From Polytrichum commune (lineage: Eukaryota; Streptophyta; Polytrichopsida; Polytrichales; Polytrichaceae), in the NCBI GenBank assembly GCA_950295325.1, contig OX485805.1, positions 42,432,758-42,496,757 on the forward strand: a stretch of DNA of 64,000 bases. Direction: 5' to 3'. Shown here piece by piece: positions 1 to 16,940 of this stretch (the first letter of the stretch is position 1; every line of letters begins with the position of its first letter). Under the pieces are notes generated by a model. That model did not search any database, was not told the DNA's origin, and saw only the letters and a program-made list of their open reading frames with translations. A program made the translations under genes and the position numbers.

Positions 1-1266
1 CCCCTCAAGCGGTATAGCTTCATAGCAGTGTGCTATGTCGGCTACAAAAATATCGTGTATTGTCTCCGGCAGGTTAAGGACTAGATCCATCACTGAGTCA
101 ATTACCCAGAAATTAGAGGTGTCAGTGTCCATTAACGAGCGGTAAGTCCGCGTACGCTTAGCAAACCATTGTTTCAGCGTAGGGAGAATACCCTTTAATG
201 CCATAGTAATGAATTGTGCTATGGTGGAGTATATAGAATTGTGGGCATTTGTAAGCCATCTGTAGGTATTTTTGTGTTGCTTGAACGTACCCATCAGGTA
301 TGGGAGACGAGCAGCTTGTAGAGGAATTTCCGGAAGAAGATTACAGATTTCTTCAAATAGCTCCTCTGCTTTATTCTGAGGGTTAGTCCATGAATTATTT
401 TGTAGACAAGGGGCAAAATCTTTGCCCTGGAGTCTCAATAGTGCTTGAGCACGTATGTGCCTTATACAGATAAAGCTGGCATTTGAAGCCGCTTTATCTA
501 GCCCGGCTATGAACAAACGTTCCTGGATCCATTGAAGTTCATCAATGGCTGAATGGATTTTCTTCCAAGAGGGTTGGGAGTATTTGTATCCGCCTTCATT
601 CTTGGATGCTTTTTCTTTCAGAATCATCCACGTAGTATTTCTAATCCATAATGTTTGATCAGATGGGTCAATGTGTAAAATGGAACATACCTGTATCCAT
701 GCATCAATCACTGTTTCGACAACCTCTTGTAGGCGAGTTTGTCTTAAAGGTATATGGTTGAGACCACTTTTGAAATTATTCTTCAAAATTGGGTCTCGGA
801 TGATTTCAATGTTCATTGTGCGAACATGTATGTCTGTCAGCGAAGGGATTGTATGCACCGGGATAGTTTCCGCAGTGCTAGGGTCCAGGTATTTAGAGAA
901 TCTTTTGGTGAGTTGACATGGACATGGTGATAGAAACGTGCTATTATCAAAAACGAAATCACGAAATACCTTTGCTGGTTTATACACTGTTGAGTGAAAC
1001 TGGTCATAGTATCTCCAGCCAAAGGTAATATTCTCCAGACAAGGAATGAGTCCATCATTTCCTTGTCTGCGAAGGGCATCGGCACAGATGTGACGTATGC
1101 TAACCCATTCCATCGCCCTATTAGGGTATAGAGAGTGCACAAAACCTATCCGTTTTATGTTAGACTCCTTACATATCGAATTTCTTCCCAATTCATCCTG
1201 TTTAACTGTTCTTGAAATTGCAATAGTATGGGAGGGATCTGTACATACCAGGATTAGTTTGTCAGC
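1..1266 (-). CDS. Reverse transcriptase-like ORF of a Penelope-like or non-LTR retroelement (partial, runs off left edge)
   Basis: A single minus-strand frame is open from a stop at 1267-1269 to the window edge, about 422 codons with no internal stop. The end nearest the edge reads like a reverse transcriptase. A segment around 340-220 (YRWLTNAHNSIYS, then TIAQFITMALKGILP) looks like the fingers region. At 45-1 the peptide VADIAHCYEAIPLEG has the form of RT motif A, with its catalytic Asp in a D-x-x-x-C-Y-x-x-I-P context as in Penelope-like and telomerase-like RTs. Motif C (YxDD) would lie beyond the edge. The upstream half contains CxC and W-rich segments that I do not recognise. Coding may continue upstream across a small intron near 1240, because another frame at 1280-1410 looks protein-like. 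Family assignment is from memory of motif shape only. A LINE-type RT is the main alternative. No long terminal repeat is seen. Confidence 0.6.
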
Positions 1267-1545
1267 TTATTCAATCCCATGAAATATTCCTGCCAAAAGC
1301 CGGAGAAGAAATAGAAGTGGTATTAGAACCGCCACTGGATCCTTCAGCCCCGTTTTGGTTACAGTACAAATAACCAACATCGTTATTTTCATGTAATCAG
1401 GCGCTGCACCGTAGTATGAAAATTCACGTTGGCGATTGACGCCATCGTCGCTTGAATCCCTGGTGTGGGCGGTGTCAGAGGGTCTTTGTACCCTTTTTTG
1501 GCCAAGTCATTGTGCCAAGAAGGGGGCTGTTTGTAATCACACAGC

Positions 1546-2487
1546 AATATATTAGTATGTGATGCGGCGCATCATTCACCTGATGTACAACAAAGACTTG
1601 TTTTCAACAAAAAGAGGTGTCGATGTATAGACCATCGGTGTGGAGATTATTGAGCTATCCAAAAGGGGTAATCTAAAATCATCCAGTCATATATTTAGTA
1701 TGTTATGAACAGCATCGTCCATATATACCCTGTCGTAAAGCCATGACTTATTTTCAGACAACCAGGGGAAAGTCAGTCGATGAATCAACCATTAGTGCAC
1801 AGGACATATCACATAGATTATCCTGTCAGCAAGGGGCCGTTTCTGATCCCATAATAGTATGTTAGTGTGCTATACAAAATATTGTTTATTACACACCAAA
1901 TGAGAAGCTAGGTTTTAATTTCAGAAAACATGAAAGAAATACTGTCGATGATTACATCGTTAGTATGAGGAAAATGCCACATAATTTATCGTGGCAGTAA
2001 GGGGGTACTTATGTTATGAAGGACATCTTCATAAAAATTCCTGATATGAAGCAATGACTTATGTTCACAAGTCATGTGGAAAGAATATCGCTGAATAAGC
2101 CATAAGTATGCAGGAAGTATTATTTAGATTATTGTGCCAGCAAATGGCCATTTATACTCCCATGGTAGTATATTAGTATGCAACGAAGAGCATCGTTCAT
2201 ATACATACCTGATGTGAAGTAGGACTCATTTTTAGAGAGCAGGGAGAAAGACTGTCGATGAATAGATCGTCAGTGTGAGAAAACTACTCATAGATTATCG
2301 TGTTAATAAGGGGTTTATTTATAATCACTCAGTAGTATATTATTATGCTTATGAAGAGCATCTTGTATATATACCTGAAGTGAAGCTAGAACTTATATTC
2401 AGAAAACCAGGAGAAAGAATGTTTGATGATCAAACCATCCTTATGAAGAAGATACCATATAGATTAGCAAGATACTTTAGATCCCTC
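1546..2487. repeat. Degenerate ~160 bp tandem repeats, about six copies
   Basis: Six diverged units start near 1546, 1690, 1852, 2011, 2166 and 2332. Each opens with a variant of TAGTATATTAGTATG, followed by a CATC-TATATACCTGATGTGAAG block, a GGAAAGACTGTCGATGA block, a CATAGATTATCGTG block and a CAAGGGG block. A further partial unit precedes them at about 1390-1545. Spacing is roughly 145-165 bp. The array lies immediately 5' of the minus-strand RT ORF, as the promoter monomers of some LINEs do. That link is inferred. The last copy is the best preserved and is open as a small frame by chance. Confidence 0.8.
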
Positions 2488-4129
2488 TAAAGTAATGGAT
2501 ATACGGTAAGAGAGCTGACTAATCTTGTCTTGATTGGTTACAATAGGTTAAGTCCCCTTATTGTAAGGTCATGTTAGGACAACATACATCCCTGTTAAAA
2601 CAGGGTCTTGATAATCCACTGGTATGACTCAAATTTTGAGTACTTAAATGAGAAACTGGTTTAATCATGTGTGACTCGTTTACATAGAGTCATTTTCTTC
2701 TTATCAACATTCCTGAGTAGTTTTACCCATTTGTCAACTGCTGGTTAAGAATATTACTGCAATTCCACCAGTAATTTATAACTTGAAGTCCCATAATACC
2801 TGTTACTGTCAGGTATCCTATCGATTTCATAGTCAATCTTTTCATGACAGATGGGTTTTCTTCGAATCTTGTCAGAACACTTTCCTTGTTCGTAATCAGT
2901 AGCTCATAAGGTGCTTCCTCAGGTGAAAAATTCCTTATCTATTACTCATACTGGTGATTTTCGGCTTTGCCGAAATGGTCATAACTCATACTGCTATTAG
3001 TGTATTCTTGTTAGTAGAACTTCTCATTCCTGGGGTTTTCTGAAATGGTCATTTAACCATATTTATTGGTATCAAAACCTTAAAGCTCTCAAATTCTCAA
3101 TCACGTGACAGCTACTCATTTTCCTGGTGGGTCCTGTGAGTAACTTAAAAAAGACTCTCCGAGACTCATGAGTCATAACCTTTGAGCCATCGATATACTG
3201 ATTCTAAGAGAATCCTTCATCCCCCAACAAGACTATCTGTGGTCATACGAGACCTGTTATAGAAGAGATTTAAAGTATGTGCTGACTATCCGTAGTAGGC
3301 TTTGAAGTAAGTAGTATTTACCTGGTCAGAACCAGATTATATAGTAATGATTTTTCTAAGAACTCTATTCTCTCTTATCCACTGATAGAAACTTGTTTCA
3401 CGATATCAAGGATATCATGCGTCTCGTTTCTTGTGAGTCTGTCTCAGAGCATAAACTTATTCAGAGACAGTCCTGGGTTCCAAGAAGCTATCTACTGTAT
3501 ATAAACAGTAATCAAATTATGTAATACCCATATGAATGTGTAAAAGTTTATGTCACATCCATCCTTAAAATAAAATAAAAGCCTTATATATGGGAAGTTA
3601 TTTGATATTCTTTCAGCCAATTGATTGTTAATCCTGGGCCTGTAAGAAGACTACAGGAGTCATTCTACACTTCCGAGGTACTGAGTTCTGTGACGAGTCT
3701 TATACCATACTTCAATTAGTAATCCAATTATGTGAATTGTATCACACATGGGCCGTCCAGTATTTAGAGGGCTAAGAGTTTTTTTACAAGAAAATTATTT
3801 CTAATATTTCTTGTAACACTGAAATCCACCCATTATGTGTAATGAGACTATACACAGACTACCAGTATTCATCATGAATCGCCGATAATTTCTGTGTTAC
3901 TGTAAGTAATTCCAGGAGCAAATTTGTGAGCAGGAAGTTACCATTTACATCTCCCTGTACTGTTTTTAAGAATCACAGAATTGTCATATATCCGAATTGT
4001 AAGTTCCGGAAAGAATCAGCAATTATAGAGAAATGTATTTTTCATCAGGAAATACTCATAATCACTATTCCAGGTTTCAAAGAGAAGTTGCTTGGAAGAG
4101 ATATAATGAGTGGCCATTTTCTTCTTTGG
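2488..4129. other. Intergenic, no gene recognised
   Basis: AT-rich sequence with many short recurring phrases (for example ACTCATACTG and GAAATGGTCAT at 2943-3060) but no convincing reading frame. A small perfect hairpin with a 7 bp stem and TTT loop sits at 2957-2973. It may be a decayed continuation of the element to the left. Confidence 0.4.
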
Positions 4130-4330
4130 AAGGTGCTCAGCACTCGTAGAAGAGGTCCTCACCTGTGCCCATGCTCCCCAACATTACCAAGAAATAAGTT
4201 AGTAGAGCGTACATCAGGTGTAAGCGGACCTTCTTACTTGTTATCGATGTCAACAAGGCTATTTCACCTCCTAGGAAGTAGGTATCATTCACCATATTCA
4301 ATACAAATAGTTGCATATATTGAAAAGATA
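4130..4330 (+). repeat. Dispersed repeat block related to 8595, 11090 and 12128
   Basis: The stretch with TCACCTGTGCCCATGC, then CGTACATCAGGTG and TTGTTATCGATGTC, recurs in the same order in three further blocks at 8595-8815, 11090-11320 and 12128-12350. It is followed in each by a run resembling ATATTCAATACAAAT. This copy is isolated from the ~1 kb repeats that carry the others. Confidence 0.6.
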
Positions 4331-4816
4331 TATGAACATAAAATCTTGAATCAAGAATATGGTTAGATGGCTGATTATCCCATGTGACCAAGAAGTGTAG
4401 TCTTGTGAATTTTCAGAGAATGTTCTGTGGCTACACCTTGAATTCATCTTGCGATGAGCTAGACTTGGTCATTGTAGAGATGCACTGGGATCTTGACTTA
4501 CAGTATACAGGTGAATATTTACACAGAGTCACAGACTGAAATCACTCAGGCTTCGGACACTTCTATGGAACCGAACTCTCCTGTTGAGAGACTTGTGGTA
4601 GCATCACACAGACAGGCAGTATCTTACTTGTACGCCGAAGCCTACTCATAAGGGGAACTCAGGCTCGAAGCCTCTGCAGTAATACTCTTACACTAAGATC
4701 GAGGAAAGCCTGTCAGATGATTTCCTGCCTTCCGGCTCCTCTTTTTATACTTATATTTCGTTTCTTTTTCGGGCAGCCCACAGGGATTTTTTTGGGGGAG
4801 CCCATAGATCAAGATG

Positions 4817-4817
4817 T

Positions 4818-4843
<26 letters not shown>
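4817..4843. repeat. (GA)n microsatellite
   Basis: About 13 uninterrupted GA units. The flank to its right is part of an inverted dispersed repeat shared with 7072-7150. Confidence 0.95.
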
Positions 4844-4848
<5 letters not shown>

Positions 4849-4911
4849 TTCTTATTTGCAACTTACTCACGATACAAGAATGAAGTGAAGAATCATCTGT
4901 CCAACGGTCCT
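4825..4911 (+). repeat. Dispersed repeat, copy 1 (inverted partner at 7072-7150)
   Basis: GA run, poly-T, then CTTATTTGCAACTTACTCAC and GAATGAAGTGAAGAATCAT. The same text is found reverse-complemented at 7072-7150 with only a few differences. Confidence 0.8.
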
Positions 4912-7071: not shown

Positions 7072-7150
7072 GCAACCGGACGGATGATTCTTCACTTCAT
7101 TCTCGGATCGTGAGTAAGTTGCAAATAAGAAAAAAACTCTCTCTCTCTCA
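7072..7150 (-). repeat. Dispersed repeat, copy 2 (inverted relative to 4825-4911)
   Basis: Reverse complement of 4825-4911, including the poly-T/GA junction. It ends in CTCTCTCATCCAACATAAAACC, a phrase that also occurs at the inner edge of the inverted-repeat element at 7312. Confidence 0.8.
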
Positions 7151-7311
7151 TCCAACATAAAACCCCGCAATAGTATGCACCCTTGAGGTTGCTTTTTGAA
7201 GTTGATTTCACACCGGAATTAGTTTCAAGGACCCTAAATTAGTGTACTTGAGGTCATTTGAGATGAACCCCTCTCTTCGGTATAAGGACATCGAAAACTT
7301 AACATAGACTG

Positions 7312-7535
7312 GAAATTATGGCATACGAGCGTACCTCTCGTCCATCCAACATAAAACCTAGACCCCTACATGTTTGTAGCTAATTTGTAACAAATGACTC
7401 GGACTAGACTAATTCAAGGTCTTTGAAGTTGATTCCGGTGTCACCCAAGTAATAGAATAGTAACCTTTGAGTTGCATACTATATAAGGGCTTTTATGTTG
7501 GATGAATGAGAGGTACGCTCGTATGCCATAATTCC
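7312..7535. mobile_element. MITE-like element with ~45 bp terminal inverted repeats
   Basis: The arm at 7312-7356 and the arm at 7491-7535 are reverse complements with about three mismatches over 45 bp (core GGCATACGAGCGTACCTCTC). The 134 bp between them has no coding frame. I could not fix a target duplication, so the superfamily is open. Weakly similar ends near 7700-7760 and 8110-8155 suggest an older relative next door. Confidence 0.75.
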
Positions 7536-8159
7536 CTCTCTCCAAACTTAACCGGGTCAATTATGTTGTCATTTTCTACGGTAGAGTCGCTTATTTCCAA
7601 CATGATTGTAAATATTGAACATATGCGTAGATATTGTAACCATCATGGAATCAATTGTAAGATATACTTATGTAAAAGATAAACTTGAAGTTTTTTTTTC
7701 TTGGTGAGGGGGGATTGTTGCATGTGGACATGCCTCTCATCCATTCATTTTAAAAACTTGCCCCCCTATAGGTTTGTGATTCATTCATTCTAAAGGGATG
7801 GTGTTAGAGTAATTAATGGTCTTCAAAGCTACAATAATATGTCACATTTGGTTGGCCCACACTAATTTATTGTTAGTGTGTGGATATTTACTACCATAGT
7901 AATAAAATAATATTTGTTTATTTGTTGTGGTTGCTATAGAAATGAATGAACTTAGTTCTAAGTTTTGTGATTTGATTATGACCTAATATGATTTTCATAG
8001 GTAAAGAGGCACCTTATTCACAAAGGCAACCTAATTGCACATAATTTGAGCGTTAATTTTTTTATATAAAAAGGTAAGCTCCAACCTACATACTATTTTA
8101 GAACACTTTTGTTGGAAAATGAGGGGTACACTCATATGTATAATTCCCTCCGACCTATT

Positions 8160-8162
<3 letters not shown>

Positions 8163-8210
<48 letters not shown>
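8163..8210. repeat. (GA)n microsatellite
   Basis: About 24 GA units at the left edge of the first ~1 kb repeat unit. Confidence 0.95.
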
Positions 8211-12762: not shown

Positions 12763-12784
12763 AGAGAGAGAGAGAGAGAGAGAG
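12763..12784. repeat. (GA)n microsatellite
   Basis: About 11 GA units. Confidence 0.9.
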
Positions 12785-14460
12785 CTATCCTGAATGAGGG
12801 AAACTGCACCTTGATCATAGCCATGAGCTCATATGTGAACCCAAGACATGTTTATTGAGCAAGGCTATCGAAAAGCGCCCTAATTTACAAAGCCAATATG
12901 AAATGAAAAATTAAGTTTTCTTCATGCCAACAAAAGTTAATCTTATTCTTAAAACTAAATCCAAGTTTCTTAAAAATAACTTAACACTTGAATGTCAAGG
13001 ATTTCAACTTGAATCACAAATGTATTATAAAGATGACTCAAAGACCTTATATGGCGTTGGCTTACCAAAAACAAACCAAAAAAAAAAAAAGTTGTATAAA
13101 CAATATTCCACAAAGTATTCCCACATTCAAATTGAATGTGAGAATGTTTAACATTATGTAGACCCCATCCATAGCGGCTACAATAGAAATTGTACATTAG
13201 AGTTATCCTTTAACTCAACCGGAGTTTTAGTAGGGAGTTGGTTGTTTCGCATGCATAACTTTCCATGTTCGGTAAGTTGTGGGTGCATGCTTGGAGTCAA
13301 TGTGGAGGTTTGAACGATGGACATTCCATATTAGTTCATTGGGTACCAAACTCATTTTGGCGTCTTCAGTATCACACACACTTGTATCGGAGGCTCTTTC
13401 CTTAGTCCCGTCTTTCCACGGTGTCGCCATGTGTTTTGATCATACTTACGGAGGTGCACAAGAAGGATCTTTGTTTCTACTGATGTGTAAGTTGTTGTTC
13501 ACTGCCTTTCAGATTGAAATGCTTTAACCTCAATCAGGAAATGAAGCTGGAACTAAGCTCTCCTCAGTCACTTCTTGCATCTAAACTTTCTTGCTTAAAG
13601 GGAACAGATGCCTTGAATTTCGGGGCGAAACGTGCAATTGATAAGAGTTTACAATGATTGCTTGTAGAGATTGACGCTTTCCTTTCCTCAGAGAGAGAAA
13701 TTTGGATGCAGAATGAGCCACTATGTTATGAACATTGTGCATTCTGTTTTGTCGGCAGCATCAATTTGAGCGATCAAAACCACCATATAGAGAGAAGGGA
13801 GTGGTACTAAAATCATAATCATGTGTAGCTTTCATTCAATGCCTTTCAGATTCTGAAATGTTTTAACCTCATCAAGATCACTTACTTGATAAATATGTGT
13901 GATAATTCATCGAAAAACTCGAAAACTCGTCGTTGTGGCTTTGAATTGATCATACATCCTGTAGCCACACTAAAATACAAATTACACTCCATACTTAGTG
14001 CTCACTGTACTCAGTTTGCCTTCAATCTGACTATTCATCTGGCTGGCAATCAACTGATCATCTTGATTAAACATAAGGTGATAGATTTAACGTCCATGCC
14101 CTAACGTTACTGGCCCAGTTCTGGGCACCAAGTCGCACTGGTTGACAATGAAGCCACTTATCGTGATTTTGAGTAGAAAGCATTCAAAAATTTGCATATG
14201 CAATTGTTGGATTAAGTTCGTACATGCGTGTGGCCGAGTGACAGCAGAAAAATGTCTTTACCTAAGGCAACCAGAAGTTTTCAGGACACCCGCCCATAAA
14301 TATCTACAAATCTCACAGTAACAAATTTTCCAACAGTTCGACAAAGCTCTGGCTCCTTTACCGGCACGTTCCTGCAATTTTCCGCACCTTTCCGGCCCAT
14401 GATCAGTGTGAGGTAAAACATGCTCCCATTCGTGTTGGTGCACAAACACTGACGTTCACA
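12785..14460. other. Intergenic, no gene recognised; one short direct repeat
   Basis: No convincing gene. A ~38 bp phrase (ACTGCCTTTCAGATTGAAAT and onward to AACCTCAATCA) at 13500-13537 recurs with small changes at 13838-13876. The right end approaches the 3' flank of the ubiquitin gene. Confidence 0.4.
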
Positions 14461-15827: not shown

Positions 15828-16940
15828 GGGGGACGTTAAATACCCCCCCCACGAACTTTTCGGACTGTCAGAGTCGGGCTGGGGCACCCGCCCGGCCAGA
15901 AAATCTGAATTTTCTGGACCCGACCGAAAACTGCTGCCCGCCCGCCCGATTTCGAAAAAACCATTGCCCTTGCATTCTTGAAGGCCACTTACTCACAAAT
16001 CCCATATTGAGTGCACTTCACCTTCAAGGGCCAAAATCCAATATATATGTTCACTTCCATTGAGTAAATAAGCAGTTGACTGGGGTTTCATTATCAAAGT
16101 GAAATCGTCAAAAGAAACATGTAATTAACTTGGAAGTCAAAAATATTACAAAACCCTCACTAACATTGAGGTTATAATTTTTGTGACTCACAATTTGAAA
16201 TTGTCTTTGTCATTCTAAAATGACACTTAAAACATGTAATTAACTTGGAAGTCAAAATATTACAATATTACATATATTAATTATTATAATTAACTCACTG
16301 GAATTAATTTCAATAATTAATTAATTACAGTAAGTACATTTTATAATCAATTAGGTTTACTTAATTTGGTAAGCATAGTTTCTGATTTATTTGGGATTAA
16401 TGAAGATTAATGAAGATTAATTAGACTTAATTATATTTAATCCCACTTGATATTATTGAATGCGTATGAATACTTGTGAAAGTAGACGGCATTACCTAAA
16501 ATATTATAAAATACACATACTAAATCAGCACACATGTTTTAAGTGTCATTTTAGAATGACAAAGACAATTTCAAATTGTGAGTCACAAAAATTATAACCT
16601 CAATGTTAGTGAGGGTTTTGTAATATTTTTGACTTCCAAGTTAATTACATGTTTCTTTTGACGATTTCACTTTGATAATGAAACCCCAGTCAACTGCTTA
16701 TTTACTCAATGGAAGTGAACATATATATTGGATTTTGGCCCTTGAAGGTGAAGTGCACTCAATATGGGATTTGTGAGTAAGTGGCCTTCAAGAATGCAAG
16801 GGCAATGGTTTTTTCGAAATCGGGCGGGCGGGCAGCAGTTTTCGGTCGGGTCCAGAAAATTCAGATTTTCTGGCCGGGCGGGTGCCCCAGCCCAACTCTG
16901 ACAGTCCGAAAAGTTCTTGGGGGGGTATTTAACGTCCCCC
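15828..16940. mobile_element. MULE-like foldback element with 410 bp terminal inverted repeats
   Basis: The left arm at 15828-16237 and the right arm at 16532-16940 are reverse complements with only about three differences, all near the outer ends. Both ends begin GGGGGACGTTAAATACCCCC. The element is flanked by an exact 9 bp direct repeat CTATCATGC (15819-15827 and 16941-16949). Long inverted arms plus an 8-10 bp duplication fit Mutator-like elements. The 294 bp centre is AT-rich and has a partial copy of arm sequence (16118-16152 repeated at 16232-16265). No transposase is encoded, so it is non-autonomous. The frames open in both arms are mirror images of each other, not genes. Near-identical arms suggest a recent insertion or ongoing conversion between arms. 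It lies 262 bp upstream of the ubiquitin-S27a ATG. Confidence 0.92.

Follow-up and report, generated by a model that had tools for sequence, protein, structure and literature searches.

A probable Penelope/telomerase-type retrotransposon that has complete LTRs and lacks a recognised endonuclease in the moss Polytrichum commune

A long reverse transcriptase (RT) frame lies at the edge of a 64,000-nucleotide stretch of Polytrichum commune DNA (the window), and it raises the question of which kind of element carries it and how such an element could insert. An earlier note, made from the letters of the window, had claimed an open RT frame of more than 420 codons that was nearer to Penelope or telomerase RTs than to plant LINEs. 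The frame was confirmed: positions 1-1266 of the minus strand hold 422 stop-free codons, ending ...VADIAHCYEAIPLEG. Window base 1 corresponds to C3:42432758, and the frame extends leftward past the edge to C3:42431834, the complete ORF2 of the window copy comprising 730 codons (C3:42431834-42434023, minus strand). Motif B (GIPMGFSCSPLW; GIPMGFSCSPLWCNLY) and motif C (FRYIDDLC) were found outside the window edge, where the earlier note had suggested looking for them, and the C-terminus was thumb-like as judged by eye; the motif names along the window part of ORF2 are partly those that we presume to apply. The plant setting taken for granted in the note was borne out by the LEAFY SAM domains of a land-plant host (four matches in the assembly). 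For one LEAFY DNA-binding fragment the top PDB hit was 4bhk, presumably the protein of the moss Physcomitrium.

Pfam RVT_1 was the sole family detected in ORF2, and it was present in each of the 13 copies aligned, of which three were partial. The window copy scored 18.8 bits, and the four other copies that were scanned singly all contained RVT_1 at 18.1-21.9 bits, likewise under the Pfam cut-off of 29.6. Sequence searches of the PDB with ORF2 gave no meaningful match, and the AlphaFold models of the element proteins were poor (pLDDT 43 and 46). Since related full-length frames were present at other loci and the window copy, compared with L011 as its nearest relative, gave a dN/dS of 0.083 (dN 0.146; dS 1.76, near saturation), the ORF2 frame is not a product of chance. 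Motifs A and B are spaced by ∼100 residues in ORF2, compared with ∼60 in the host LINE L058 (the latter counted by eye).

The affinity of the RT was analyzed with a profile of the ORF2 family. The claimed nearness to Penelope and telomerase RTs over plant LINEs gained support: the profile scored 63.5, 38.5 and 37.1 bits against three loci of a mussel-symbiont record (E 3.3e-18 and 9.2e-11) and 17.1 bits against the host TERT, a locus separate from the ORF2 family, and no host LINE (four loci) or host Gypsy (three loci) scored above 0 bits among the matches listed (the best 20, below which the LINE locus L061 ranks). A pattern that we assume to be typical of animal PLE (Penelope-like element) RTs had picked out one contig in the symbiont MAG; the mussel RT fragment is presumably an animal RT of Penelope type, and we take this best profile match to be of the Naiad/Chlamys type. 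The three loci (L062, L063 and L064; JACCHT010000015.1, all in the same Bathymodiolus symbiont MAG) are decayed retroelement RT pieces. As L062 and L064 have identical reading frames, they appear to be the same stretch, which leaves two independent mussel pieces. No Pfam RT family was detected in these pieces, and neither a hammerhead nor any other RNA family was found at these loci at E<=1. The RT contigs in the MAG are likely mussel DNA contaminating a public prokaryote genome. According to the portion of a bivalve study that was available, Penelope-like elements were deliberately kept out of its LINE set, and the mussel fragment is not named in that portion (PMC10294476). The search for relatives of ORF2 gave 31 pattern matches in viral contigs and 31 in genome_contigs, with 0 confirmed in either, none in plasmids and one in phages (E 0.4), which lay inside an annotated unrelated gene.

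Two RT trees were built from rows of moss copies, mussel pieces, host TERT and LINEs (plus Gypsy in the first tree), with no named PLE reference among them. In the first tree, TERT grouped with the LINEs (87/83), the Gypsy rows were interspersed with those of the moss, and long-branch joins were flagged. In the second tree, which omits the three Gypsy rows and C_L035, the LINEs were split from the moss, mussel and TERT rows (100/98), and the grouping of moss with mussel was weak (71/64). By the AU test on the second tree, neither moss+TERT (p 0.26) nor moss+LINE (p 0.15) was rejected. Judged from the sequences, ORF2 probably belongs to the PLEs.

The searched assembly comprises 408 Mb, nearly all of it in seven contigs of 42-78 Mb, presumably the seven chromosomes of a moss. 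At least 65 ORF2 matches were obtained and grouped into at least 47 dispersed loci, a lower bound given that 61 were scored among 122 first-look candidates; stop-free full-length matches were present at 14 of these loci. A lone gene was considered and rejected, as the ORF2 copies are dispersed. Two copies on different chromosomes share 99.86% identity across 4,957 aligned bases. Three groups are distinguished: group A, which includes the window copy and in which the six best matches are 71-77% identical to it in protein sequence, and groups B and C, at 39-46%. Values of dN/dS between 0.06 and 0.39 were obtained in the 12 of 45 pairs with computable dS. The dS of 1.76 together with low dN/dS indicates that the lineages are old and their coding sequence constrained; the ORF2 family is under purifying selection. 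The family loci showed no telomere association, as there was no enrichment at contig ends: the distances of 0.5, 1 and 2 Mb from an end took in 1, 2 and 3 of the 47 loci, compared with 0.8, 1.6 and 3.2 expected. The sequence TTTAGGGx2 was present in 1 of 68 loci.

The complete copies are arranged in the order LTR, ORF1 (an orphan with an RG-rich tail), ORF2 (RT), LTR. The five complete copies in which both sides were compared (L018, L017, L024, L014 and L011) span 6.3-8.6 kb, with LTRs of 1.1-1.95 kb. In all five of these non-window copies the paired LTRs were 99.85-100% identical (L018, 1117/1117 bases; L017, 1113/1113; L024, 1104/1104; L014, 99.94% of 1601; L011, 99.85% of 1949). The LTRs of the L018 and L024 types differ by ∼6%, whereas the pairs within these copies are identical, which indicates that paired LTRs have been homogenised since the types split. 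In 6 of 6 copies inspected, (CT)n opens the LTR, and CAGCTCT marks its end, exactly or to within a few bases. Terminal direct repeats as well as solo and tandem LTR copies are present in the family; 27 of at least 41 full-length matches to one LTR type were solo-like, being distant from ORF1 and ORF2 matches (40 scored among 760 first-look candidates). A complete element at L042 is preceded by two LTRs from different subfamilies, placed head to tail and joined via (CT)n (L042:2087-3220; C1:40471087-40473325). No tRNA-like binding site common to the copies was seen by eye after the LTR. An Rfam search of six stretches at E<=1 revealed no hammerhead and one weak match to a miRNA family (29.7 bits, cut-off 122). 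In the hairpin listed in Table 1, both partners vary in 3 of the 9 pairs and pairing is kept in 27 of 27 cells, a result equalled by 23 of 500 shuffles, with three sequences only in the comparison.

The ORF1 frame precedes ORF2 and measures 528, 568 and 570 codons from stop to stop in three complete copies. It contains a conserved core (WNVxRPxxRCxC...WFDHAxW) followed by the RG-rich tail. No Pfam family was detected in 11 of 11 ORF1 rows (most of them without the N-terminus), no meaningful PDB relative was found, and of 47 pattern matches in viral contigs 0 were confirmed. An ORF2 match adjoins downstream or overlaps on the same strand at 33 of 50 ORF1 loci, and the other 17 have no neighbouring ORF2 match. 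ORF2 lies in a different frame from ORF1, and conserved ORF2 residues are found upstream of its first Met. In group B the two frames are separated by stops; among the copies of group A, several have overlapping open frames. A splice between ORF1 and ORF2 is possible.

The features of the window copy are collected in Table 1. Near-full-length or full-length copies of its family X 5' LTR, 98-99% identical, were found at C5:15666275, C4:34839211, C5:49489098 and C6:41455019. Its 3' LTR lies outside the window at about C3:42429395-42431359 and has two further copies at 99% identity. The two LTRs of the window copy can be aligned to each other only as short islands. Because they represent different LTR families, each with near-identical copies elsewhere, the window copy is interpreted as a chimera of two families in which ORF1 has been cut down to 27 residues; given the 98-99% identity of both LTRs to copies elsewhere, the insertion is not necessarily old. 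The internal region at the usual site of ORF1 contains diverged direct repeats (blastn pairs of ∼250-306 bases, 68-70% alike); Tandem Repeats Finder detected no array there. Domestication argued from decayed LTRs around an intact ORF was rejected, as the LTRs are two different families with near-identical copies.

Table 1. Positions in the window of the parts of the element and of its insertion site
Feature	Position	Strand	Remarks
ORF2 (RT), 5' part	1..1266	-	422 codons: N-terminal domain, CxC, DKA, fingers, motif A
ORF1 remnant	1274..1354	-	final 27 residues; 81% identity with the C-terminus of L014 ORF1
Internal region, site of ORF1 in other copies	1355..2507	-	no ORF1 match reported
Hairpin, 9 bp, just inside the 5' LTR	2473..2494	-	shared by three group A families
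5' LTR, family X, ∼2.3 kb	2508..4843	-	starts (CT)13, ends GTCAGCTCTCTT
(CT)13 run opening the 5' LTR	4818..4843	-	
5'-side flank of the insertion	4844..4902	.	
Unoccupied paralogue of the insertion site	7078..7548	+	both flanks joined by (CT)6.5

An unoccupied paralogue of the insertion site was found in the same window. Its match to the occupied site was 94.9% over 59 bases of the 5' flank and 92.3% over 400 bases of the 3' flank, and the letters between the flanks were CTCTCTCTCTCTC. Since the flanks are joined there via (CT)6.5, the whole LTR-to-LTR unit lies within a run of (CT)6.5. Relative to the unoccupied site, the occupied one carries two extra letters (AC) at its 3' junction. A CT run precedes 26 of 28 exact LTR starts (under a pattern that requires a non-A 17 bases upstream), the run being partly the element's own sequence. 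The two starts lacking the run are preceded by CCCAGCTCTCTC and ATTCAGCTC, which resemble the LTR ends of other families by eye. Because the LTR ends themselves include (CT)n and additional CT is missing from several 3' flanks, the evidence for a target preference consists of the one empty site and the nested cases. Directly after the group B element L022, the 3' flank (C2:27229242-27229932) holds ∼0.7 kb of a partial family X LTR, another instance of one LTR within the CT tract of another. No target-site duplication was found in three copies, in which the flanks were short and the longest shared words measured 3-4 letters.

The earlier note had proposed looking for a GIY-YIG or other endonuclease domain. 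None was detected by Pfam in ORF2 (13 of 13 rows) or in ORF1 (11 of 11 rows, most lacking the N-terminus), and integrase, protease and RNase H families were absent from the same rows. When the ORF2 N-terminus was aligned by hhalign with four GIY-YIG sequences, the probability was 0.15 of 100, in a comparison of low power. As the ORF2 N-terminal domain and the whole of ORF1 matched no family, an unrecognised nuclease could be present. The genome contained 13 GIY-YIG matches, none of them at an ORF2 family locus, and by eye no RT-like frame accompanied the chromosomal match inspected (L048). Three of the matches (L046, L047 and L049) lie on the small contig G000:C9 and resemble homing endonucleases, which are usual in fungal mitochondrial genomes; this contig possibly represents an organelle or fungal contamination. 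This element is not a PLE with RT and GIY-YIG in a single ORF; it has a separate upstream ORF1 and full LTRs, and the window copy is chimeric.

Among known systems, the endonuclease-deficient (EN-deficient) PLE type goes by the names Athena and Coprina. Canonical Penelope/Poseidon elements are alike in their telomerase-like RT, terminal direct repeats, and solo and tandem repeats; they combine RT and GIY-YIG in one ORF and have short pLTRs, often with an inverted copy, whereas the moss element has a separate ORF1, long LTRs and no GIY-YIG that could be found. A hammerhead ribozyme occurs in many PLE terminal repeats and is not obligatory. The Naiad/Chlamys PLEs, reportedly described by Craig et al. 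in 2021, resemble the moss ORF2 in their CxC and DKG-like motifs and long A-B spacing; they carry an N-terminal GIY-YIG, to which the moss ORF2 N-terminus showed no similarity in the low-power comparison above. The nearest precedent is offered by the EN-deficient Terminons, which share with the moss element a telomerase-related RT, two ORFs, no recognised endonuclease and a short repeat at the 3' end able to pair with the target end, and for which the terminal repeats of the RNA are modelled as pairing with exposed telomeric repeats (PMC6431247). The moss element differs from EN-deficient PLEs in that its repeat is (CT)n and not telomeric, contig ends are not enriched, full LTRs stand at both ends and no hammerhead was found. 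The earlier note had also held intact Penelope-like elements to be rarely reported in land plants: in the part of a survey that was available they are indeed described as patchy across land plants, and Selaginella, Pinus and Picea already appear there as hosts of EN-less ones (PMC9033089). The portion of PMC7466625 that was available does not mention Penelope, and no description of this moss element was found in titles and the starts of abstracts. With EN-less plant PLEs already known, what is probably new here is that a land-plant retroelement of the EN-less PLE/TERT type has complete LTRs.

The two-ORF layout, the near-identical LTRs of the complete copies checked, the dispersal, the ORF-less LTRs and the position of the window copy in (CT)n are observed, and the genome appears to harbour a lineage that is active and diversified, has complete LTRs and lacks a recognised endonuclease. 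We consider it probable, with some reserve, that this is a recently active retrotransposon of the Penelope/telomerase branch, without a recognised endonuclease and with the layout LTR-ORF1-ORF2(RT)-LTR, which would use (CT)n/(GA)n ends for priming. Under such a mechanism, the LTR transcript end (...CUCUCU) would pair with a (GA)n 3' end exposed where a (CT)n/(GA)n microsatellite is broken or nicked, and ORF2 would extend this end, akin to telomerase or to a telomere-attaching PLE. The (CT)n at the LTR start could let the other cDNA end join the target via the same short homology. ORF1, with its RG-rich tail, may bind or package the RNA, both LTRs would be regenerated from a single sequence in each cycle, and the window chimera may have arisen when two families recombined or the template was switched from one to the other. 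A further-reaching proposal, possible though doubtful, is that the element follows a third LTR-retrotransposon route, in which a gag-like ORF1 acts with a telomerase/Penelope-type RT, true LTRs are remade each cycle without integrase or endonuclease, and (GA)n ends prime at CT microsatellites, including the CT tracts of the element's own LTRs.

An ordinary Penelope-like element could also be considered, the "LTRs" being the known pseudo-LTRs that arise from tandem templates, so that only the host and the length would be new. In the excerpts available, PLEs are reported with pLTRs, solo pLTRs and tandem copies, one A. vaga family being mostly direct-only (PMC3846280; PMC11167929), and two-ORF EN-less PLEs of 4-6 kb are already known (PMC6431247); the adjacent LTRs at L042 and the Selaginella and conifer elements cited above fit as well. 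The moss LTRs, however, measure 1.1-2.3 kb and have matching ends, compared with ∼0.2 kb, often plus an inverted copy, in the A. vaga material seen, and neither a GIY-YIG family nor a hammerhead was found; we regard this explanation as unlikely. A Ty1/Ty3-type LTR retrotransposon with a fast-evolving pol would share the order LTR-ORF1-RT-LTR (in Ty3/Gypsy also the basic, RG-rich tail of ORF1), identical LTRs and ORF-less LTRs, and it would agree with the Gypsy rows among the moss rows of the first tree, a join that the tool flagged as long-branch. Against it stand the host Gypsy RTs scoring below 0 bits by the ORF2 profile, the absence of protease, RNase H and integrase families, and, by eye, the lack of a shared tRNA-like binding site after the LTR, which make it very unlikely.

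That ORF2 is a domesticated host gene (a telomerase paralogue or rvt-type) might be argued from the window copy, which retains its 730-codon frame despite the loss of ORF1. The dispersed near-identical copies on two chromosomes, the window LTRs with their 98-99% identical copies elsewhere and the separate locus of the host TERT speak against this origin, which is even more improbable. An ordinary L1/RTE LINE of plants would agree with the many RVT_1 RTs of the genome (150 scored among 2620 first-look candidates, with LINE and Gypsy typed by eye), and the AU test alone does not reject moss+LINE. The profile scores against the four host LINE loci, the presence of LTRs and the wider A-B spacing argue in the other direction; a LINE is barely conceivable here. 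With the Penelope/telomerase-type retrotransposon as the preferred reading, the element can serve as a natural test case for the origin of PLE terminal repeats and for whether telomerase-like priming on repeat ends can support transposition off telomeres; the LTR layout combined with such an RT in CT-repeat DNA may show an insertion route without a recognisable cutting enzyme.

Further repeats were observed around the element. Inverted paralogues (86-92% identity) of L009:1-2204, which lies left of the window, were present at window positions 7141-8210 and 12763-13989, and the window element is flanked by two inverted copies of a dispersed repeat. Moreover, window positions 15828-16237 and 16532-16940 form a 410-bp inverted repeat with 99.3% identity and a spacing of 294 bases, perhaps a recent terminal-inverted-repeat transposon.
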